A stretch of DNA of 43,558 bases from an uncultured Mucispirillum sp. (lineage in GTDB: Bacteria > Chrysiogenota > Deferribacteres > Deferribacterales > Mucispirillaceae), in assembly GCA_944325215.1 (NCBI GenBank), contig CALUZC010000022.1:1-43558 (forward strand), written 5' to 3'. Positions 11,814-43,558 of the stretch are shown in pieces. Under the pieces are notes generated by a model. That model was given only the letters and a program-made list of their open reading frames with translations, ran no database searches and was not told where the DNA came from. Within the stretch, counting starts at the first letter, position 1; each line of letters opens with the position of its first letter. The position numbers and the translations under genes are program-made.

Positions 11814-11878
11814 TTTACAAATATAATAAATAATAGTATTTTGTAAAAAGATTAATTCAGGAGGATTAAGGAATTATG
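11814..11878 (+). promoter_or_regulatory. Leader of first porin-like gene: possible promoter and conserved translation leader
   Basis: TTTACA (11814-11819) and TATTTT (11837-11842) with a 17-base spacer are a possible promoter; this part is weak. The 20 bases ending at the start codon (11859-11878) are AGGAGG followed by ATTAAGGAATTATG. The same string with one change precedes the second porin-like gene, so it was inherited or selected as a strong ribosome-binding leader. Confidence 0.4.
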
Positions 11879-13156
11879 AAAAAAGTTTTTTTAACACTTT
11901 TTGCTGCTTTAATGGCAGTTCCTGCATTCGCTGTTGAAGTTTATAACAATGGCGATAATACTGTTGAAATTTATGGCCATATTCATGGTTATGTGGGCTA
12001 TGGTATGGGTATGAATGGTGGCAGCAGTGAACTCAATGGAGTAAAAACTACTTATGACCCAATGTATTCTCACAATATGCTGTATGGTCTTCAAGGCAAC
12101 TCAAGAGTTGGTACTAGAGTAAAAGCAGGTAATTTCTCTGGACAATTTGAACTTGGTGCTAATGAGCAGACTTTACGCACAAGTGCACCAAACACTATTG
12201 GTTTCCGTCAAGCTTGGGGTGCATATACTTTTGGTAACGGTTCAAGACTTTTAGTAGGTAAAACTGATACTCCAACAGCAATGGGTGGTTTTATTTCTTC
12301 ATTCTATGATACAGATGGCGGTTTAAACGGTTTTGGTGGCAGCCCAACTGGTTTTAGAAGATTTCAAGTTCAATACAGCATTGCTGGTCTTACTTTATCT
12401 TTAATCGAAGATGATGCATCAGATACATCAATGGTATTTAATAACCCAATCGGTTCAACTGAATATTACTTCATAGATAATGCCCAATATACTCCAAGGG
12501 CAGGTCTTTCTTATGTATACCAAAGTGAGTCATTACTTGCAAAAATTGCAGCAACATATACTGCTGTAAATGGTTATGCATTATCAGATCCAACTAATAT
12601 AAATAGTACAAAAAAATGGACTAACCTTCATGCATTTGGTGTAACATTAGGTGTTAAACCAACATTTGGTAACATGTATTTATCTGTTCATGCAAGATAT
12701 GGTATGAACGAAGATGTGTATGGCGAAGGTGGCACATATATAAATGAAGGTTTATATGCTCACACAAATATGTCAAAATGGGATGGATTAGGGTTGACTG
12801 CTACTACAACAAGTGCAAATGACGGCTCATTTAATAATGTTCACCGTGCAGCAGCTGCATTAGAATTTGGTATTAAAGCTACTGAAAACTTTACTGCTAT
12901 TATTGGTGGTGGTTACCAAGCTACTATTCCTGAAATAGAAAGTGTTGCAGGTGTTAAAGAATCTTTCTTAATTCACAGCTATGCAGTATTTTTACAAGGC
13001 CAATACAGATTAAGCCCTAACTTTGCACTTGTTCCTGAAGTTGCATGGTTTGGTACAAATTACTCACAATCATATACTGGAAACGGTCAATCACAAAAAT
13101 CTTCTAATTATGATAATGGTTTATTAGTTGGTTTACAGTTACGTGCCAGCTTCTAG
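11876..13156 (+). CDS. Porin-like outer-membrane beta-barrel protein 1
   Basis: A 426-residue protein with a classical signal peptide (MKKVFLTLFAALMAVPAFA) and a mature N-terminus VEVYNNGDNTVEIYGHIHGY, typical of Gram-negative trimeric porins. The body alternates Gly-rich turns and amphipathic strands (NTIGFRQAWGAYTF, RAGLSYVY, GIHARYG-type repeats) and ends in LQLRASF, a C-terminal Phe as used for barrel insertion. It probably forms a general diffusion pore. The next gene is a close paralogue. It is separated from that gene by a strong terminator, so the two are probably transcribed independently. Confidence 0.82.
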   Translation: MKKVFLTLFAALMAVPAFAVEVYNNGDNTVEIYGHIHGYVGYGMGMNGGSSELNGVKTTYDPMYSHNMLYGLQGNSRVGTRVKAGNFSGQFELGANEQTLRTSAPNTIGFRQAWGAYTFGNGSRLLVGKTDTPTAMGGFISSFYDTDGGLNGFGGSPTGFRRFQVQYSIAGLTLSLIEDDASDTSMVFNNPIGSTEYYFIDNAQYTPRAGLSYVYQSESLLAKIAATYTAVNGYALSDPTNINSTKKWTNLHAFGVTLGVKPTFGNMYLSVHARYGMNEDVYGEGGTYINEGLYAHTNMSKWDGLGLTATTTSANDGSFNNVHRAAAALEFGIKATENFTAIIGGGYQATIPEIESVAGVKESFLIHSYAVFLQGQYRLSPNFALVPEVAWFGTNYSQSYTGNGQSQKSSNYDNGLLVGLQLRASF

Positions 13157-13185
13157 TTAAAAGTATAATTACTTTTATATAATAA

Positions 13186-13214
13186 AAAACCACCTTACAA
13201 AAAGGTGGTTTTTT
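13186..13214 (+). terminator. Rho-independent terminator after porin-like gene 1
   Basis: AAAACCACCTT (13186-13196) pairs with AAGGTGGTTTT (13202-13212), loop ACAAA, followed by more T. The A-run on the left makes it likely to work on both strands. Confidence 0.88.
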
Positions 13215-13426
13215 GTTTTCAATATATATAAAATACTCTGAAATATCTATAAATCCCTATAAATAATATTATATGCTTTATTATAAATAAAAGTATTATT
13301 TTATAGTAAAATAAAATTAAAAAATTTTTATAATTTTTACATAAAAAATAGGTCGATTTATATTGCATTTTTTATAAAAATAAAATAGTATAATTAAACT
13401 TGTCTTACTACATAAGATATAATTTT

Positions 13427-13446
13427 AGGAGGTTTAAGGAATTATG
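13427..13446 (+). promoter_or_regulatory. Conserved ribosome-binding leader of second porin-like gene
   Basis: AGGAGGTTTAAGGAATTATG differs by one base from the 20 bases before the first porin-like gene. A TATAAT at 13389-13394 might be its -10 box; the best -35 (TTGCAT, 13363-13368) is 20 bases away, which is long. Confidence 0.45.
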
Positions 13447-14769
13447 AGAAAAATCCTTTTAACACTTTTTGCAGTGCTTTTTGCAGTTCCTGCATTCGCT
13501 GTTGAAGTTTACAACAATGGCGAAAACTCTGTTGGTATTTATGGTGCAGTTCTTGGCTATATGGGTTATGGCTTAAGTGCAACAGGTGAAACTAATGGGT
13601 CTGTTCCTGTATTAGGTTCTTCTAATACGCCTAGCTCTTTAAATCATAACATGATGTATGGCTTGCAAAATAACACAAGAGTTGGTACAAATATTAAAAT
13701 TGGTAACTTTACAGCACAATTTGAGCTTGGTGCAAATGAACAAACTTTACGTTCAAGTGCAACTAATACTATTGGCTTCCGTCAAGCTTGGGGCGCTTAT
13801 ACTTTTGCTAACGGCTCTAAACTTTTATTTGGTAAAACAAATACACCTACTTCTATGGGTGGTATTATATCATCTTTTTATGATACAGACGGTGGTTTAA
13901 ATGGTTACGGTGGTATGGTAAGAAGTAACAGACGTTTCCAAGTATCATATACTATTGCAGGCTTAACATTGGCTTTAATTGAAGACGATATATCAGCATT
14001 ATCAACTCTTAATACTGATGGAGTAACATATACAGATAGAATAGCAGGCTTTAGAGATAATGCACCTTATACTCCAAGAGCAGCTATTGCTTATGAATTT
14101 AAAAATGATTCCTTACTTGCAAAAATTGCAGCTACATATACAGCAGTAAATGGTTCATACACAGATGCAGCAGGTGCTACAAAATGGACTAATCTTCATG
14201 CTTTCGGTGTAGTTTTAGGTGTTAGACCAACTTTTGGTAACATGTGGTTAGGTATTCATGCAAGATACGGTATGAACGAAGATTTATACGGTGAAGGTAA
14301 AACTGTAGCTAATAATGGTAAATATTCTCATGATTCATTTAGCCTTTCATTCCCTACTCTTGGTACAGTTAGCAGAACTATTAATAATGATGGTTCTTTT
14401 AACAATACTCACCGCGCTGGAGCTGCATTAGAATTTGGTATTAATGTAACAGAAAACTTTGCAGCTATTATAGGTGGTGGTTACCAAGCTACTATTCAGG
14501 AAATTGGTGATACAATTAATATAACAGGTATAGGTGCTGTTGGTGTAACAGACCCATCTTACTTAGTACACAGCTATGCAATATTTGTGCAAACTCCATA
14601 TAAATTTAACCAAAATTTTGCACTTGTTCCTGAAATTGCATGGTTTAGCACATCAGGTAAAGCTTCTGCGAATGTAAACGGTTTGGCTGGAGCTGTTAAT
14701 GGAAAAGCTGAAACATCAGCATCACAAAGCGGTTTATTAGTTGGTGTGCAGTTCCGTGCTACTTTCTAA
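13444..14769 (+). CDS. Porin-like outer-membrane beta-barrel protein 2
   Basis: A 441-residue paralogue of the preceding porin-like protein. The signal peptide (MRKILLTLFAVLFAVPAFA), the mature N-terminus (VEVYNNGENSVGIYG), many strands (NTIGFRQAWGAYTF, DTDGGLNGYGG, LLAKIAATYTAVNG, IHARYGMNEDLYGEG) and the terminal Phe (QFRATF) are shared. Differences cluster in stretches that look like surface loops, for example an extra segment near residues 25-35 and a changed region around 285-320. It probably forms a pore with different selectivity or antigenicity. A duplication origin is evident; which copy is expressed when cannot be read from sequence. Confidence 0.82.
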   Translation: MRKILLTLFAVLFAVPAFAVEVYNNGENSVGIYGAVLGYMGYGLSATGETNGSVPVLGSSNTPSSLNHNMMYGLQNNTRVGTNIKIGNFTAQFELGANEQTLRSSATNTIGFRQAWGAYTFANGSKLLFGKTNTPTSMGGIISSFYDTDGGLNGYGGMVRSNRRFQVSYTIAGLTLALIEDDISALSTLNTDGVTYTDRIAGFRDNAPYTPRAAIAYEFKNDSLLAKIAATYTAVNGSYTDAAGATKWTNLHAFGVVLGVRPTFGNMWLGIHARYGMNEDLYGEGKTVANNGKYSHDSFSLSFPTLGTVSRTINNDGSFNNTHRAGAALEFGINVTENFAAIIGGGYQATIQEIGDTINITGIGAVGVTDPSYLVHSYAIFVQTPYKFNQNFALVPEIAWFSTSGKASANVNGLAGAVNGKAETSASQSGLLVGVQFRATF

Positions 14770-27268: not shown

Positions 27269-28837
27269 ATGGATACAAAAAATATTGCAGAATACATTAC
27301 TCGTATAATACAAAGAAGTAATAGACATCCTTTTTTATTCATTGGTTCAGGTTTTTCAAAAAGATATTTTAATTTATTGAATTGGGAAGGATTATTAAGA
27401 AAATTTGCAGAAGAATTTTCAGGCGATGATTTTAAGTTTGATTTTTATAAAAATAAAATAGACTCTTCTATACCAAACATATTATACCCTCAGATTGCGT
27501 CACTTTTAGAAAAAGATTACAATGAAGCTGTATTTTCTGATGATAAATATAAAAAATTTCGCTTGGAAAATAAAGAAGTAATCCAATCAGGTATTTCACC
27601 CTTTAAAATTGCATTATCAAATTATTTTTTAGATATAGATATTTTATCTTGTGAGAATGAAGAATTTCTTTATTTTAAAAATAATATTTCTACACATGTA
27701 GCAGGTGTTATTACTACAAATTATGATTTAATTCTTGATGAGATATTTAATAAATTTAATATCTATTCAAGCCAAGAAGAATTACTATTTGCAGATATTT
27801 ATAATATGGGCGAGTTATATAAGATACATGGTTCTGCTAGTAAACCTAATAGTATCATAATTAATAATGAAGATTATGAAATATTTAATAAAAAATATGC
27901 TTATTTAACAGCAAAATTATTGACAATTTTTCTTGAAAATCCAGTTATTTTTATAGGTTATAGTTTAAATGATAGCAATATACAGTCTATACTCAAATCA
28001 ATTACTCAGTGTTTAAATAAAGAGCAATTACAAACAATAGAGGATAGACTTATATTTATTGAATATTCTAATGAGGAAGAAACAATTAAAGAATGTCAGC
28101 AAAGCTTTGATGATAAAACTAATGTAGATGAAAAAAATACCATTCCAATGACTAAAATTACAACAAATAGATTTCTTGAAGTATATAAAGGAATTGTAAG
28201 TACAGCAATCACAATAAAACCAAATATTTTAAGACAGTTAAGGAAAGAGATATATGAACTTGCAGTTATTTCTAATCCTGCTAGTAAAATATATGCCATA
28301 GGTTTTGATGAATTAGATAAGTTGTCAGAAGATAGTCAGTTATTACTCTCTATTGGTGTACATAAAAGTAATTATGGTAAAAGTGTAACAGCTGATTTAT
28401 TGTATGAAGATGTAATATTTGATAATAAAAGATTTACACCAGAATTTATAACAAAGGAGGTACTGCCAGTTCTTTTAAAACAAAATACAAGTGGTTTACC
28501 AATGTATAAATACATCAAAGATTGTAAAGAATATATAACTGACACCATAAAAGCTGACTATGAAAAGAAACATAGTCTAGATGATTTTTTAAATAACTCC
28601 ATTAGAAAAGGAAAAATTATTTATAGAAAAAAGTTACAATACAAAACAATTGATGAAATAATCAAAATTGAAGGCATGGAAAAAGCATTTCGCAAAATAT
28701 GCTTTTTAAATGAAGATGAAATTAACTTAACGCAGTTACACTCATATATAAAAGAAATATATTATGAAATAGGTGTAAATAATTCTGATTTAAGAAGACT
28801 TATAAGAATATATGATTATCTTATAAACAGATTTTAA
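27269..28837 (+). CDS. SIR2-like domain protein, candidate defence NADase
   Basis: A 522-residue soluble protein whose first 270 or so residues form a SIR2-like Rossmann fold. Visible elements are FLFIGSGFSKR (Gly26, Gly28), GVITTNYDLILDEIF with Asn151, KIHGSAS with His187, and PVIFIGYSLNDSNIQSIL. Asn and His are the residues used for NAD+ cleavage in defence SIR2 proteins. The C-terminal half (about 300-522) is helical and unrecognised; it may sense the trigger. No HerA, Argonaute or TIR partner is adjacent. It is flanked by housekeeping genes on both sides and ends in its own hairpin, which suggests a single-gene insert. The antiphage role is inferred from the family. Confidence 0.78.
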   Translation: MDTKNIAEYITRIIQRSNRHPFLFIGSGFSKRYFNLLNWEGLLRKFAEEFSGDDFKFDFYKNKIDSSIPNILYPQIASLLEKDYNEAVFSDDKYKKFRLENKEVIQSGISPFKIALSNYFLDIDILSCENEEFLYFKNNISTHVAGVITTNYDLILDEIFNKFNIYSSQEELLFADIYNMGELYKIHGSASKPNSIIINNEDYEIFNKKYAYLTAKLLTIFLENPVIFIGYSLNDSNIQSILKSITQCLNKEQLQTIEDRLIFIEYSNEEETIKECQQSFDDKTNVDEKNTIPMTKITTNRFLEVYKGIVSTAITIKPNILRQLRKEIYELAVISNPASKIYAIGFDELDKLSEDSQLLLSIGVHKSNYGKSVTADLLYEDVIFDNKRFTPEFITKEVLPVLLKQNTSGLPMYKYIKDCKEYITDTIKADYEKKHSLDDFLNNSIRKGKIIYRKKLQYKTIDEIIKIEGMEKAFRKICFLNEDEINLTQLHSYIKEIYYEIGVNNSDLRRLIRIYDYLINRF

Positions 28838-36535: not shown

Positions 36536-37492
36536 ATGTTTGAAAAACAACCTAAAAAAATATCTAGTAAAAAAGCATTAATTTTTGCAGGAATAATTAT
36601 TACTTTATTAGTTATAGTTATAGCAGCCATAATTTTTTTAATGGCAAAAAATGGTAGTCATAAAGAAACAGCACAACCTAAAAATAATGAACAAAGTGAA
36701 ACAGTAAGCCAAAATAAGAAGAATACTTCTCAAAATAATGAAGAAAATATAGATGTAAAATATATATTTTTACCAACTGTAGAAAAAACATATGATTTAA
36801 ATGGTAAGCTTACAAAAGAGTCATTATTTGGCTGGGAGTATTATAAAAGTCCAACAGATTATAAATTTTTGAATATAGAAGCAGGCATGCAACAAATGTA
36901 TAGTGAAACCACTATGGAAAGAAAAGGTAATAAATTAAAATCCAGCACAAATTTTTATATAAATAATAAGCTAAAAGAAGATTTTTCATCTAACAGCACT
37001 ATAGAATACGTTGATAATACTTCCATTATATTAAATCAGGAAACAACAAAATTAAATGGTGAACAAGTTCCAAATACTATCGAAGTGGTAAAAAATCAAA
37101 AAGTTGGCAATTTAATAATGCTTGAGCTTCTTGATAATTCAACAAATACGTTAAAAAAGATACAAATCAATCCTAATGGAGTAATAACAGAAAGATTATA
37201 TGAAGATAATGAACTTGGCAGTTTAAGAGAATATAGAAATTATTATTATAATGGAGTATTGGTAACAGCTCTTTATGATGTAGAATATTATCAAGATAAT
37301 AAACTTTATTCTACAGCTTCATATAAAGTGGAAAAAGAAGAAGTAGTAGATGAAAATAATGTTAAAATTACACTAGTTCGTGAAAGTGAAATAAATGGGA
37401 AAAAAATAAAAGAATTTACCATTGAATATGGTTTGGAAAAATATATAGTTGAAAATGATAGCACAGTTACACCTATTGATATGGAAGAATAA
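36536..37492 (+). CDS. Membrane-anchored paralogue of preceding protein
   Basis: A 318-residue protein with one N-terminal transmembrane helix (about residues 14-37, ALIFAGIIITLLVIVIAAII) preceded by basic residues, so the body should lie outside the cytoplasm. A Gln/Asn/Ser-rich linker (about 40-75) joins it to a strand-rich domain that resembles the preceding gene's product over its whole length (for example VGNLIMLELLDNSTNTLKKI, YYNGVLVTALYDVEYY, VDENNVKITLVRESEI). A GAGGGAG ribosome site precedes the ATG. No known domain was recognised. It is followed 35 bases later by the first member of the secreted array. Confidence 0.65.
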   Translation: MFEKQPKKISSKKALIFAGIIITLLVIVIAAIIFLMAKNGSHKETAQPKNNEQSETVSQNKKNTSQNNEENIDVKYIFLPTVEKTYDLNGKLTKESLFGWEYYKSPTDYKFLNIEAGMQQMYSETTMERKGNKLKSSTNFYINNKLKEDFSSNSTIEYVDNTSIILNQETTKLNGEQVPNTIEVVKNQKVGNLIMLELLDNSTNTLKKIQINPNGVITERLYEDNELGSLREYRNYYYNGVLVTALYDVEYYQDNKLYSTASYKVEKEEVVDENNVKITLVRESEINGKKIKEFTIEYGLEKYIVENDSTVTPIDMEE

Positions 37493-37527
37493 TTACTATA
37501 TATGTGTGTGACAGGCGAGGGTGTTAT

Positions 37528-38886
37528 ATGTTTAAAAAATATTTATTAATAATATTTATAATATTTTTTTCAAATACTTATATTTATGCTGAAACAAAAG
37601 AGAATATAAATTATATAGATGTATATAATAAACTTATGGATAAAAATTATATTATAGATGATGAAAGTTTAGAAGAACTTGTAAGTATATATAAATCATT
37701 AAATAATAATCAGTTGGAACAATTATGCAAAAAATATACTAACGATATATCTAAAAGAGCAGAAAAATATGCTACATACAATTTAGAAAGCTTAAATAAT
37801 AAATTAATGAAAGCGTATAAAATAAGTGAAATTAATTCAATTTATACTATTTCTACATTAAAAAAATATTTCATACCAGACATAAAAAAAGAATATTTTA
37901 TAGCAATATATAAAGAAGGAAGAAATACTTATTTTAAAAAACATTACCCTGAAGCATTAGAAGATTTAAAATTATATATAAATTTTGACTCTGGTATCTC
38001 TCCAGATGACCCAATTTATAAAACACATCTTAGGTATATAGACTATTTATTAATTGATATTGAAGATTCTTATAATGGAATTACTGTAGGATATAAATAT
38101 GCAGGTAAAAACCAAATAAAAGTAAAAGGTGTCTTTTCGCTGTCAAATATTAGTAATTATGAATTTATTATGGACCACAGCTCAGACAACCATGTAATTA
38201 ATAAGTTTTTACCTAAAACAGACTTTACATCGTATGATAGAAGTTTTGAGTTAAAAAATTTATCAATTAGACCTAAAAAATTTACATATAGCAGCAATAT
38301 TTACCCAAATATATTATCTCAAGGTAAATTTGGTAGAGTTAATTTTGATGCCGAAATAACATTAAGTTTAGATAGTGCCGTTTGCTTAGATTTAGATAGA
38401 GATTTGGCTCTTATAAGCGTAGAGGAAATAAAATTAAATAAAGTAGTAAGCAGTTTGAAATATTCAGATCCAAATGAATTTTATAAAAGTGGTAATATAG
38501 TTTTTTATGAGTTAGTAAGTGATGATGGTTATGTAAATTTAAGAGATGCTCCCAATGGTAAAATAATTAAAAAGATTAAATTAAAAGGAAATAGTGGTAA
38601 GTATGTATATCACCATAAAGGTCTTTTTAATTTTGAAGATGAAGAAAACACAATGTTTACAGAAAATTTTGATGAACAATTTTATAATAAATTTAAAGGA
38701 TATTATAGTAAAATTAATAAGTTATTAAATATGCCCGAATCTATATTAGGGCAGTGGTATAGGGTTGTATATATTCCTTCACGAGATGATTTAATGTTAT
38801 TTCTCCCCGATGAAAATTATGATTTTCAGATTATAGGCAGTGCAATTTATGGTTATGTCCATTCATCTCAATTAAATGGGCAGTAA
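37528..38886 (+). CDS. Secreted array protein A1 with C-terminal SH3-like domain
   Basis: A 452-residue secreted protein, family not recognised. ATG 37528 has GAGGG eight bases upstream and gives a clean signal peptide (MFKKYLLIIFIIFFSNTYIYA); an in-frame start at 37504 would spoil it. A helical N-terminal part (about 25-130) is followed by the core domain shared by all four array proteins: VKGVFSLSN (about 198), FLPKTDFTSYDRSFELKNLSIRPKKFTY and ILSQGKFGRVNFDAEITL (about 228-290). A bacterial SH3-like domain occupies about 330-452: SDDGYVNLRDAPNGKIIKKI at its start and YGYVHSSQL at its end. Such domains often bind peptidoglycan. The closest relative is A2. Confidence 0.72.
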   Translation: MFKKYLLIIFIIFFSNTYIYAETKENINYIDVYNKLMDKNYIIDDESLEELVSIYKSLNNNQLEQLCKKYTNDISKRAEKYATYNLESLNNKLMKAYKISEINSIYTISTLKKYFIPDIKKEYFIAIYKEGRNTYFKKHYPEALEDLKLYINFDSGISPDDPIYKTHLRYIDYLLIDIEDSYNGITVGYKYAGKNQIKVKGVFSLSNISNYEFIMDHSSDNHVINKFLPKTDFTSYDRSFELKNLSIRPKKFTYSSNIYPNILSQGKFGRVNFDAEITLSLDSAVCLDLDRDLALISVEEIKLNKVVSSLKYSDPNEFYKSGNIVFYELVSDDGYVNLRDAPNGKIIKKIKLKGNSGKYVYHHKGLFNFEDEENTMFTENFDEQFYNKFKGYYSKINKLLNMPESILGQWYRVVYIPSRDDLMLFLPDENYDFQIIGSAIYGYVHSSQLNGQ

Positions 38887-38924
38887 TATACTATAATTTA
38901 TAATTAAAGTGGAGTGTAAGAAAT

Positions 38925-40220
38925 ATGCAAAAAATATTATTACTATTATTTATTATATTATTTTCCAGCGTATATACATTTGCATCATCAAGTGATGCAA
39001 GAAAAGTTGAAAAAAAACTAAGTGAATATAATGATGTAGATTTTAAATATTATTTCAAAAGTTATTGTGGTGATTTTAAAGAAAAAACAAAATTATCATA
39101 TATAGATAGATATTACAATATACTTATGTCTTCTGGAACAGATGAAGAAGTATATGATTTTGTATCTGACTGCATTATAAGGAATAGAGAGAAAGATAAT
39201 ATATATTTTAATAAAATAATAGAAGATAACTACAGCAAATTAATAAGAAAATATTACCGTTATTTTTTTATAAATATAGTAGAGGGTGAAGAAGTTGATC
39301 CAGAGTATTATGATGCGGAAAAAAATGCTCTAAAAATATTTTATAATCAATTAAATCAAGCAGATATAAAAACATATTGCAATTATATAACAAGAAATGA
39401 ATATATTATATATCCAAGAACTTATAAAAGATTAAATATACTGCGAGAAAAAATAAATAATGAAGATATGAAAAAAATAAGCCTTAAACTAGAAAAGGAT
39501 ATGGCAAAATATGCAAAAAATAAAGAATTTAATTTACAGTACACTCTTAAGGGTGAGATAGAAGAAAGTGGTATTAAGCATGTATCTACTCTAGAAAATA
39601 TTAGGAAGTATTATAAAGTAGATATAAAATACAGCACTGTATTAAAATACACTAAAATGTATTACTATAATATATTAACACAAAATTATCCTGAACTTGC
39701 GCAATCTATATTAAAGTATATGAAGTTGAAAGAAATAGCAAATGATGCTGATTATAATGAGAATATATCTAGTTATGAAATTACACAATTTAGTATGTAT
39801 TATAGTGGTATGGAAGTTCATCATGAAGATGCTGATGTTACATATGCATATAAGTTAAAAACTCCATTGAAAATAAAAGGTATTTTTACATTATCAAATA
39901 CTCGTGATAATGATGATTATGAACTTAATAAAGGTAAACCAAAAACAGATTTTTCAGCATATGATAAAAGTTTTGAATTAATGGGTATGTATATTAAAGC
40001 AAAGAATTTTATATATGGCAATAATAGGTATGCAAATATATTATCACTATCAGAAGATATATCAGGTGAAGTTAATTATGATGCAGAAATAACCATAAAA
40101 CCGGGCAGTAAAATTATTTTAGATAGATACCCAGAAGTAAACATACTTGTTATATATGTAGATGAAGTAAAGTTAAATAAAATTATAAGCAGAATGGAAG
40201 ATGAAGAAAGCGATTATTAG
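38925..40220 (+). CDS. Secreted array protein B1, SH3-like domain lost
   Basis: A 431-residue secreted protein with signal peptide (MQKILLLLFIILFSSVYTFA). Its N-terminal part (RKVEKKLSEYNDVDF) matches B2, but B1 carries about 110 extra residues (about 45-150) before the shared segment ITRNEYIIYPRTYKRLNIL. Residues about 211-315 are encoded by a block identical to B2. The shared core follows (IKGIFTLSN, PKTDFSAYDKSFELMGM, VNYDAEITIKPGSKI). The protein ends at ISRMEDEESDY, where the other three array proteins continue into an SH3-like domain. A decayed copy of that coding sequence appears to lie just after the stop, so B1 looks C-terminally truncated. Confidence 0.7.
   Translation: MQKILLLLFIILFSSVYTFASSSDARKVEKKLSEYNDVDFKYYFKSYCGDFKEKTKLSYIDRYYNILMSSGTDEEVYDFVSDCIIRNREKDNIYFNKIIEDNYSKLIRKYYRYFFINIVEGEEVDPEYYDAEKNALKIFYNQLNQADIKTYCNYITRNEYIIYPRTYKRLNILREKINNEDMKKISLKLEKDMAKYAKNKEFNLQYTLKGEIEESGIKHVSTLENIRKYYKVDIKYSTVLKYTKMYYYNILTQNYPELAQSILKYMKLKEIANDADYNENISSYEITQFSMYYSGMEVHHEDADVTYAYKLKTPLKIKGIFTLSNTRDNDDYELNKGKPKTDFSAYDKSFELMGMYIKAKNFIYGNNRYANILSLSEDISGEVNYDAEITIKPGSKIILDRYPEVNILVIYVDEVKLNKIISRMEDEESDY
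39556..39868 (+). repeat. 313-base block identical to part of B2, copy 1
   Basis: Compared line by line, this block matches 41977-42289 without a difference I could find, while flanking coding sequence is clearly diverged. It encodes EESGIKHVSTLENIRKYYKV through YKLKTPL in both genes. Confidence 0.85.
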
Positions 40221-40318
40221 GTGATGTTTATAGATATATGTTTATAAGTTTAGAAGCAGTGATGAATATTAAAATATGGGCAGACAATTAAATATTTAAC
40301 TTAATAAGTGGAGGGCAT
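40221..40318 (+). pseudogene. Eroded remnant of SH3-like coding sequence after B1
   Basis: The gap between B1 and A2 contains ATAGATATAT (40230-40239) and AAGCAGTGATG (40254-40264). The B2 gene has ATAGATACAT (42687-42696) and AAGCAGTGATG (42707-42717) directly before its SH3-like segment GYVNVR. Intervening bases also align with small changes. After the stop of B1 the frame is closed, and the match fades after about 45 bases. I read it as the start of a deleted C-terminal domain. Confidence 0.5.
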
Positions 40319-41620
40319 ATGGTTAAAAAATATTTATTAATAGTATTTATAATATTTTTTTCAAATACCTATATGCAGGCAAGAGCAGAAAATGATAACC
40401 AAAGCATCATAAATTATATGGATGTATATAATAACCTTATGGATAAAGATTATAATCTTACAGATTTTGGAAGTTTTGGTAATATGAATAATATCTATAA
40501 ATCATTAAATGAAAAACAAATGAGGGCATTAAGCCTTAAATATAAGAATGATATAGAAAGATATGCAGCAAATAGAATAAAATCTTTATATAAATTATAT
40601 ATGGATAGTTTTAGAAGCTATGGTGTTAATTCAATATATACTTTTAATACAATAGATAAATATTTTATACCAGACATAAAAATGAACTATATTACTGTAT
40701 CAGCAATAGATTATTATGATAATATTTTAATAAAAAACTATCCAGAGCTTGTATCTGCTATGAGAAGATATGTAAGCTTTGCTCCTGCTGCCCCAGAAAA
40801 TGATAAAAAATATGATATTATGTTTTCATCTTTAATGGAATTCCATGCTTCTAAGACATCTGATATAAATGACTTGGATAATGAATTATTTTATAAATAT
40901 AAAGGAAAACAACCAGTAAAAGTAAAGGGTATTTTTACATTATCAAATGTAAACAATACTTCTTCTTACAAGATATGTGATAGGGAGTATTACATAAATA
41001 GATATTTACCTAAAACAGAGTTTACATCATATGATAAAAGTTTTGAATTAAAAAATTTATCTATTAGACCAAAGAAATTTACATACGGTAATAATATATA
41101 TCCTAACATATTATCTCAAGGAAAGTTTGGCGAAGTTTATTTTGATGCCGAAATAACATTAGGAATTGATAGTATGATATATCTACACAATGATGATAAG
41201 AGAGTGGCATTAATAAGTGTAGATGAAATAAAAATAAATAAAATAATAAATAGCTTTGAATATAGAGATTTTATTACAGAACTAGATGTAATATCAGATA
41301 GATATAGGTTAATTAGTGATAATGGCTCTGTCAATATAAGAAATGCTCCTGACGGTAAAGTGATTGGTCAGATTGAAGTTGGTCATTATAGTAGTGTTGA
41401 TCATTATAATGGTTTAAAGAATTTTGAATCAAATGAAGAAAAATATTTTTTTAATAACACAGAAAATGAAGATTATTATAATAAGTTTAGAAACTATTAC
41501 AGCAAAATAAAAAAACTGTTAAATATAAGAGAATTTAAAATAGGTCAATGGTATATAATTCCTTATAATAATGGTTATGGTTATATCCATTCATCACATA
41601 TAAAAATAATCGAGCAGTAA
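40319..41620 (+). CDS. Secreted array protein A2 with C-terminal SH3-like domain
   Basis: A 433-residue secreted protein, closest to A1. The signal peptides are nearly the same (here MVKKYLLIVFIIFFSNTYMQARA), and so are INYMDVYNNLMDKDYN, SIYTFNTIDKYFIPDIK, the core (VKGIFTLSN, LPKTEFTSYDKSFELKNLSIRPKKFTYGNNIYPNIL) and the SH3-like end (SDNGSVNIRNAPDGKVIGQI from about 331, YGYIHSSHI at the end). The core DNA of A1 and A2 is also very similar. GTGGAGGG lies close before the ATG. It follows the eroded remnant and is four bases upstream of an alternative B2 start, so A2 and B2 are probably co-translated. Confidence 0.72.
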   Translation: MVKKYLLIVFIIFFSNTYMQARAENDNQSIINYMDVYNNLMDKDYNLTDFGSFGNMNNIYKSLNEKQMRALSLKYKNDIERYAANRIKSLYKLYMDSFRSYGVNSIYTFNTIDKYFIPDIKMNYITVSAIDYYDNILIKNYPELVSAMRRYVSFAPAAPENDKKYDIMFSSLMEFHASKTSDINDLDNELFYKYKGKQPVKVKGIFTLSNVNNTSSYKICDREYYINRYLPKTEFTSYDKSFELKNLSIRPKKFTYGNNIYPNILSQGKFGEVYFDAEITLGIDSMIYLHNDDKRVALISVDEIKINKIINSFEYRDFITELDVISDRYRLISDNGSVNIRNAPDGKVIGQIEVGHYSSVDHYNGLKNFESNEEKYFFNNTENEDYYNKFRNYYSKIKKLLNIREFKIGQWYIIPYNNGYGYIHSSHIKIIEQ

Positions 41621-41642
41621 GTAATTGTGGGGTAACAATATT

Positions 41643-43058
41643 ATGAAAAAAATACTGATTATATTATTTATAATACTATTTTCAAATACTAATGGATATA
41701 CAGCATCAAATAATGCTAAAAAAATTGCAGAAAAATTAATTGAATATAATAATGAAGATTTTAAAAATTCTATGAGTCAGGAAAATATAAAAATATTTAT
41801 GGAGTATATAACAAGTAGTGATTATGTTATAAGTCCTGCGGATTATGGTAAATTAGATATTTTAAGAACCAAAATAAGCAATGAAGATATGAAAAAAATC
41901 AGCTTAAAACTAGAGAAAGATATAGAAATTTATGCAAAAAGACAATACGATGATATACAGCAAAGTCTTATGTATCAGATAGAAGAAAGTGGTATTAAGC
42001 ATGTATCTACTCTAGAAAATATTAGGAAGTATTATAAAGTAGATATAAAATACAGCACTGTATTAAAATACACTAAAATGTATTACTATAATATATTAAC
42101 ACAAAATTATCCTGAACTTGCGCAATCTATATTAAAGTATATGAAGTTGAAAGAAATAGCAAATGATGCTGATTATAATGAGAATATATCTAGTTATGAA
42201 ATTACACAATTTAGTATGTATTATAGTGGTATGGAAGTTCATCATGAAGATGCTGATGTTACATATGCATATAAGTTAAAAACTCCATTAAAATTAAAAG
42301 GTATTTTCACATTATCAAATATTAATAATAATGTGTATATCAGTGGCAGTGAATATTTAAATAATTATTTACCTAAAACAGAATTTTCTTCATATGATAA
42401 AAGTATTGAAATAAATGGTATATCCATACGCCCAAAAAAATTTACATATGGCAGTAATATTTACCCAAATATATTATCTTCTGGTATATTAGGTGAAGTT
42501 AATTTTGATACAGAAATAACAATAAAACCGAGCAGTAAAATTATTTTAAGCAGGAACCCAGAAGAAAACATACTTATTATGTATGTAGATGAAGTAAAGT
42601 TAAATAAAATTATAAGCAGTGTAAAATATAATAGAAACGAATATGGAGATGACCAAAATAGTGAGTATAAAGATAAACAACATAATATAGATACATATAA
42701 ACTTACAAGCAGTGATGGTTATGTGAATGTAAGGAACAGCCCAAATGGTAAAGTTATAAAAAAAATAAATCTCAATTCTTCTGAAGATAATATAGTATAC
42801 TATTATAAAGGGCTTTATAATTTTAAAGAATTAGAGGGCATTCTTTATATTGAAGAAATAGCAAGGAAGTTTAAAATTAATGCTGAAAATTACTATAATC
42901 AAATAAAAAAATTATTAAATATGAAAAACTTAAAAATAGGCAACTGGTATAAGGTGGTATATTTTCCTGAAAATACATATAAAATAGATGATGCAGTTGT
43001 TGGCTATATCCATTCATCACAAATGGAAAAAATTAGCAACAGCAATGAATATTATTAA
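41643..43058 (+). CDS. Secreted array protein B2 with C-terminal SH3-like domain
   Basis: A 471-residue secreted protein. ATG 41643 gives a clean signal peptide (MKKILIILFIILFSNTNGYTA), with GTGGGG about 11 bases upstream; an in-frame TTG at 41625 would put WGNNI before it. N-terminal KKIAEKLIEYNNEDF and NEDMKKISLKLEKD match B1. Residues about 112-216 are encoded by the block identical to B1. The core (LKGIFTLSN, YLPKTEFSSYDKSIEINGISIRPKKFTYGSNIYPNIL) is closer in part to the A proteins. An SH3-like domain follows from about 356 (SSDGYVNVRNSPNGKVIKKI) to VVGYIHSSQM near the end. It seems to be the intact form of which B1 is the truncated copy. Confidence 0.72.
   Translation: MKKILIILFIILFSNTNGYTASNNAKKIAEKLIEYNNEDFKNSMSQENIKIFMEYITSSDYVISPADYGKLDILRTKISNEDMKKISLKLEKDIEIYAKRQYDDIQQSLMYQIEESGIKHVSTLENIRKYYKVDIKYSTVLKYTKMYYYNILTQNYPELAQSILKYMKLKEIANDADYNENISSYEITQFSMYYSGMEVHHEDADVTYAYKLKTPLKLKGIFTLSNINNNVYISGSEYLNNYLPKTEFSSYDKSIEINGISIRPKKFTYGSNIYPNILSSGILGEVNFDTEITIKPSSKIILSRNPEENILIMYVDEVKLNKIISSVKYNRNEYGDDQNSEYKDKQHNIDTYKLTSSDGYVNVRNSPNGKVIKKINLNSSEDNIVYYYKGLYNFKELEGILYIEEIARKFKINAENYYNQIKKLLNMKNLKIGNWYKVVYFPENTYKIDDAVVGYIHSSQMEKISNSNEYY
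41977..42289 (+). repeat. 313-base block identical to part of B1, copy 2
   Basis: This is the partner of 39556-39868, with a constant offset of 2421 bases. Identity begins abruptly at AGATAGAAG and ends abruptly at AACTCCATT, where B1 has G and B2 has A. Confidence 0.85.
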
Positions 43059-43069
43059 GAAGATTAAAT

Positions 43070-43492
43070 ATGAATGAAGAGTTAATTAGAAAACGAAAAA
43101 AACAGATAGGAAAGGATAATTTAAAATTTTTATCATTTGCAATAATTTTGATTGCAGCTATATGTTTTATTACTATTGAATTGCTTGCTCGCACTGCTTT
43201 TTTAGATGATTATGAGTATGATGAAAGTGTATTTGAAGAAAAACTTGCTAATGTGGAAATCAATAAAGATGACGATACATACCTTTTAACTCATTACAGA
43301 TTAAAAGATAAAAAAAATAATATTCAAAAAGAATATAAGTATATAAGCCATACAGATTTATTTAATTATGAAGTGGAAGTAACAGCTAAAAATAATGACA
43401 ATATAACTATTACTAAAGAAGTAAGAAAAGGCAATATTTTATATATTTATGATGAAAATAATAAGCTTATAGATAGAAAAATGAGCCTGTGA
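43070..43492 (+). CDS. Small single-pass membrane protein of unknown function
   Basis: A 140-residue protein not recognised. Basic N-terminus (ELIRKRKKQIGKDN), one transmembrane helix at about residues 20-40 (FLSFAIILIAAICFITIELLA), then an acidic, strand-rich tail outside the membrane. The layout resembles the membrane-anchored paralogue at 36.5 kb, and the tail pattern (Glu-Val-x-Val-x-Ala-Lys-Asn, IYDENNKLIDRKMSL) is similar in style, but I cannot align them with confidence. It starts 11 bases after B2 and is probably co-transcribed. Confidence 0.6.
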   Translation: MNEELIRKRKKQIGKDNLKFLSFAIILIAAICFITIELLARTAFLDDYEYDESVFEEKLANVEINKDDDTYLLTHYRLKDKKNNIQKEYKYISHTDLFNYEVEVTAKNNDNITITKEVRKGNILYIYDENNKLIDRKMSL

Positions 43493-43530
43493 AAAAAAGT
43501 CTGTAAATTCAGTTTTCTATGATTATATTT

Positions 43531-43558
43531 TTACATATCCTGCTCTATGAATACCAAA
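43531..43558. repeat. Intergenic repeat element, copy 2, cut by window end
   Basis: TTACATATC (43531-43539) and CTATGAATACCAAA (43545-43558) repeat the blocks at 14872-14904. The copy runs off the window, so whether the following inverted repeat is also present is unknown. Confidence 0.45.

Follow-up and report, generated by a model that had tools for sequence, protein, structure and literature searches.

The window, i.e., the whole stretch of DNA analysed here (43,558 nucleotides), is the entire contig C22. This contig belongs to a draft Mucispirillum genome (2.55 Mb, 67 contigs, about 95% complete). The window contains four tandem paralogs, here called A1, B1, A2, and B2, of an undescribed family of predicted exported proteins, all of them on the forward strand. 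A1 (37528..38886, delimited by open reading frame and alignment) codes for 452 aa with a signal peptide, a central helical domain, a beta-rich domain, and an SH3-like tail, B1 (38925..40220) for 431 aa, A2 (40319..41620) for 433 aa, and B2 (41643..43058) for 471 aa when read from the ATG at 41643 (the ORF list starts at the TTG at 41625). Common to all four is a layout of signal-peptide-like N-terminus, helical central region, and beta-rich domain, to which a weak SH3-like tail is added in A1, A2, and B2. B1 and B2 differ in architecture by a long extra segment of ~100 residues at the N-terminus of B1 and by the C-terminal tail, which is found in B2 only; the tail of B1 has been lost, faint DNA homology with a gene of the related genome G001 (see below) extending to 40264.

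Pfam and NCBIfam searches yielded nothing above cut-off for any of the four paralogs. A likeness to bacterial SH3 domain proteins (SH3_3, PF08239) was observed for the tail of A2 only and at a sub-threshold score (E 0.0026, 18.4 bits vs. the curated cut-off of 27 bits), the rest of the protein being without family. The AlphaFold model of B2, built from 8 sequences, is of low confidence (mean pLDDT 60), and Foldseek found no solved structure in the PDB matching it at E ≤ 0.001. PADLOC, which among the paralogs was run on B2 alone, gave no match. Elsewhere in the window, PADLOC strongly matched a SIR2-domain protein (27269-28837) to the candidate defence family PDC-S25 (E 1.5e-142), and a second tandem pair lies at 11876-14769, coding for proteins of 426 and 441 aa without Pfam match, whose DNA stretches are 80-82% identical. 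A search of the own genome returned the four open genes of the array and more distant relatives on contigs C11 and C3. On C11 (G000:C11, locus L028, 1407-6318), 300-nt direct repeats that are 73-80% alike occur at a spacing of 3491 bases; a distant branch of the array's own beta-domain family lies nearby (ORFs of 789 and 461 aa further along).

Named records matching the locus were from Mucispirillum, namely CASEIN010000060.1 (Mucispirillum schaedleri SI.A35; counterpart place G001:C60) and CALUWN010000016.1 (uncultured Mucispirillum BRZ_AT bin62; counterpart place G007:C16). These two, G001 and G007, were the only informative relatives in the collections used, and all three genomes compared are draft assemblies. 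For ordinary genes, the genome of the window shows 96% DNA identity and dS values of 0.03-0.37 to G001, and 77-83% identity and dS values of 0.53-1.26 to G007. Since the contig is 98% G001-like 5′ of the array and the genome goes on downstream with G001-like sequence (97%) on contig C25, as predicted by synteny, the array forms an island in a conserved frame, made up of foreign or variable genes. The nearest relative of A1 is the first gene of G001, with which it forms a mosaic of 52-85% nt identity. The number of single-membrane-helix genes sharing a ‘KSSKGALLIA’ start, which are located upstream of A1 (36536-37492 of the window; L024:5762-7752; L023:5744-8666), differs among this genome, G001, and G007, so that the variable region reaches 5′ of A1.

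Downstream of the array, this contig, like many others, breaks at the end of an IS256-family-type element (43483..43558, +), stopping inside its terminal repeat (GAGCCTGTGAAAAAAAGTCTGTAAAT). The element occurs 28 times in the draft, mostly at contig ends, and genes for PF00872 transposases adjoin such ends (G000:C29:24124-25185 and G007:C4:108993-110108). The IS-type end truncates the gene downstream of B2, which codes for a membrane protein (43070..43492, +), to 140 aa, compared with 296 aa for its counterpart in G007 (L023:11434-12324). Contig ends in the draft lie 72-77 bases inside the element, which suggests that a de Bruijn assembler was run at k near 77.

The stretch from A2 through B2 to this downstream gene (40305..43482, +) is 92% identical to G007 overall, compared with 77-83% for the backbone. 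A2 shows about 97% nt identity and a dS of about 0.1 to the A2 gene of G007 throughout, with no dip next to the block in B2 described below. As a dS of about 0.1 is found where ordinary genes show 0.5-1.3, this cassette crossed the species boundary, being exchanged, either way round, between the lineages of the window’s genome and of G007 after their separation.

Within the array, a block of 313 nucleotides is present in both B1 (39556..39868, +) and B2 (41977..42289, +; residues about 112-216, i.e., helices and the first beta strand in the low-confidence model). The first-pass annotation had described the two copies as apparently identical base for base, third positions included, with sharp edges and flanks of roughly 60% protein identity. 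Exact comparison bears this out: 313 of 313 bases are equal without any synonymous change, a mismatch at both edges prevents extension of the match to either side, and the second-longest exact run on the B1/B2 diagonal measures 20 bases. Outside the block, B1 and B2 share 71% nt and 53% aa identity in the N-terminal part, 69% and 48% over the 75 nt immediately 5′ of it, and 78% and 61% on its 3′ side, so the protein estimate was about right. Correspondingly, Nei-Gojobori dS is 0.65 upstream, 0 inside, and 0.29 downstream (codon-wise tabulation of the block takes in the edge codons, and these hold its one synonymous and one non-synonymous difference). The probability of such a run at a background identity of 72-78% is below 1e-31, and when the informative sites were permuted, the observed run was reached in 0 of 20,000 trials. 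Within the 2.55-Mb genome the block occurs at these two places only, and in neither G007 nor G001 do the two paralogs share an exact match of more than 17 bases.

Comparison with the relatives revealed that B2 is a mosaic. Its nt identity to the B2 gene of G007 amounts to 97% before 41903, 67% in 41903-41976, 77% in the block, and 94% after 42289, with dS values of 0.12 upstream, 0.54 in the block, and 0.15 and 0.14 downstream. Counted as B1-type vs. G007-type, informative sites in B2 are distributed 2:69, 14:13, 72:0, and 10:66 over the same four sections, so that 135 of the 147 sites in the outer flanks side with G007. At the 3′ edge, the last B1-type site (42283) and the first G007-type site (42290) are so close to each other that the breakpoint is sharp. 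On the 5′ side, the 74 bases preceding the block (41903..41976, +) have left the G007 type without being identical to B1, and as they match neither gene well, the history of B2 comprises more than one event. B1 behaves similarly to B2 in that it parts from the B gene of G001 at roughly the same position, its dS to that gene rising from 0.09 upstream to 0.40 in the block, where 65 of 65 informative sites differ from the G001 gene and side with B2 (65:0). Two features that mark gene conversion are present here, namely a tract identical at silent sites between diverged flanks and a gene, B2, that resembles its G007 ortholog outside but not inside the tract.

We consider it probable that gene conversion of the central domain between B1 and B2, following import of the cassette, best explains these observations. 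In this scenario, B1 and B2 are paralogs from one family of exported proteins, arranged in tandem. The lineages of the window and of G007 would have exchanged the cassette, which comprises A2, B2, and a portion of the following gene. Afterwards, the two adjacent B genes would have undergone homologous recombination, in which at least 313 bases of the central variable domain in one copy were replaced by the other copy's sequence in a non-reciprocal conversion. Homology at the conserved domain borders, i.e., the ‘NEDMKKIS..’ helix upstream and the ‘..KGIFTLSN’ strand downstream, was probably used, and we infer general homologous recombination as the mechanism. Site-specific recombination or an invertible cassette was rejected, as the inverted repeats are short and chance-like with none at both block edges, and so was an RNA element, there being no Rfam match in 37400-43558. 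As the relative synonymous divergence shows (about 0.1 vs. 0), the cassette import came first and the block exchange later. The first-pass proposal of a recent conversion or recombination event is thus strongly supported as to the event itself, whereas its recency is bounded loosely: with zero changes in ~55 synonymous sites, dS is below about 0.05 at the 95% level (rule of three), and “recent” means after the import, not necessarily within recent generations.

With regard to direction, both B1 and B2 depart inside the block from their own nearest relatives (65:0 and 72:0). The block type is thus new relative to both G001 and G007, and the donor could have been either B gene or a third source; a search for further alleles in viral contigs found none. 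The return of B2 to G007-type sequence no more than 7 bases from the 3′ edge leans slightly toward copying from B1 to B2, a weak indication since near this edge all pairs grow alike again.

Among the other explanations, an assembly artefact, in which the assembler used one collapsed or over-merged repeat path for both copies or joined strains of a single sample at the block, is unlikely. It would fit the 67-contig draft with its break points 72-77 bases into IS elements, the G001-like left and G007-like right part of the contig, and the fact that a two-copy repeat of 313 bases forms a loop in a de Bruijn graph of k near 77, whose resolution needs pair information or a default rule. To such an assembler the block is a repeat, whose copies may be merged across single mismatches, so the true identity could be slightly below perfect and the true number of tandem units higher. 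Merging might hide a few differences in this way, but could not unify alleles diverged by 22%, and assembly could not have created the mosaic relative to G007, since the block type is 23% different from that of G007. Furthermore, the piece between the copies (end of B1, A2, start of B2) exits one block and enters the next, which is most simply read as two directly ordered blocks, the array holds no other long exact match able to act as a wrong joint, and the genome carries on at C25 as synteny predicts. It is quite unlikely that B1 and B2 received the block from a common third donor, or that one was replaced from outside and soon afterwards copied to the other. Such a donor is suggested by the dissimilarity of both genes to their own nearest relatives in the block and by the about equal distance (77-78% nt) between the three domain types of this genome, G007, and G001; two imports of the same unchanged block would nevertheless require more events than import or inheritance plus one conversion.

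The blocks might also be the footprint of an insertion, with the unit of B1 end, A2, and B2 start having entered an ancestral hybrid B gene by a single crossover. In the B gene of G001, this domain indeed sits between a front of B1 type and a back of B2 type, the blocks are in the same reading phase, and loss of one 2421-base repeat unit would restore the G001 architecture. A single crossover, though, predicts a G001-like part after the block, where 40305-43482 is 92% identical to G007, and both sides of B2 as well as the next gene are G007-like at similar dS (0.12, 0.15, and 0.14), as expected of one contiguous import, which makes the insertion very unlikely. Purifying selection, or a recent duplication of the whole gene with subsequent fast divergence of the flanks, has nothing in its favour beyond the identity itself and is of negligible probability. 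Silent sites show no difference within the block but strong divergence right next to it, and orthologs differ more in the central domain than in its flanks, contrary to what a conserved segment would show. It is on these synonymous sites that purifying selection, already dismissed in the first-pass annotation, is rejected as the cause.

Gene conversion between B1 and B2 does not seem to be the only exchange at this locus. The B gene of G001 is itself a mosaic, its front being 93% identical to B1 and its back 88% to B2 but 77% to B1. Together with the block and the three equally distant domain types, this hybrid gene implies that the central domain underwent further exchanges, and conversion looks recurrent. 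From the coordinates, recombination between the two direct-repeat blocks would delete 2421 bases and leave one hybrid gene of the G001 type. A far-reaching reading, which we regard as possible but doubtful, is that in this commensal of gut mucus the array serves as a dedicated diversity locus, where within a conserved frame the central domain is swapped between neighbours and across species, and the direct repeat lets genes fuse and split (two-gene form of G001 vs. four-gene form).

Regarding function, signal peptides are evident by eye in the paralogs and export is likely, yet neither a lipobox, an anchor, nor a recognised surface domain was found in them, and a periplasmic location, with the SH3-like tail binding the wall, would be as good a guess as surface exposure. 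Segmental gene conversion among antigen genes is known from Anaplasma msp2 and Borrelia vlsE (PMC4534519), with which the B genes share the swapping of a central variable segment between homologous genes with conserved borders kept. Unlike in these systems, four open and separately started genes are present here; the single expression site and silent donors that characterize cassette-type antigenic variation (vlsE, msp2, pilE) are missing, the own-genome search of the ~95% complete draft having found neither silent pseudogene cassettes nor a single expression site. Other bacterial paralogs that show mosaicism and conversion under homologous recombination, such as Wolbachia OMP genes and Rhs families, resemble the array in their mosaic genes, sharp breakpoints, between-strain exchange, and hybrid genes, and differ from this undescribed Mucispirillum protein family in the proteins concerned. 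Of the earlier idea that the exchange is a way to shuffle surface proteins, variation through recombination is plausible, since the same central domain was swapped between lineages; antigenic shuffling by recombination of the B genes is speculative.

Mucispirillum is a bacterium of mouse-gut mucus associated with inflammation (PMC5285517). Conversion between tandem paralogs is a well-known event, whereas the family is new: the present case documents the exchange of domains among exported proteins of a Mucispirillum family not described before, at a locus that can be compared across strains with regard to the question whether such commensals vary their exported proteins by recombination.
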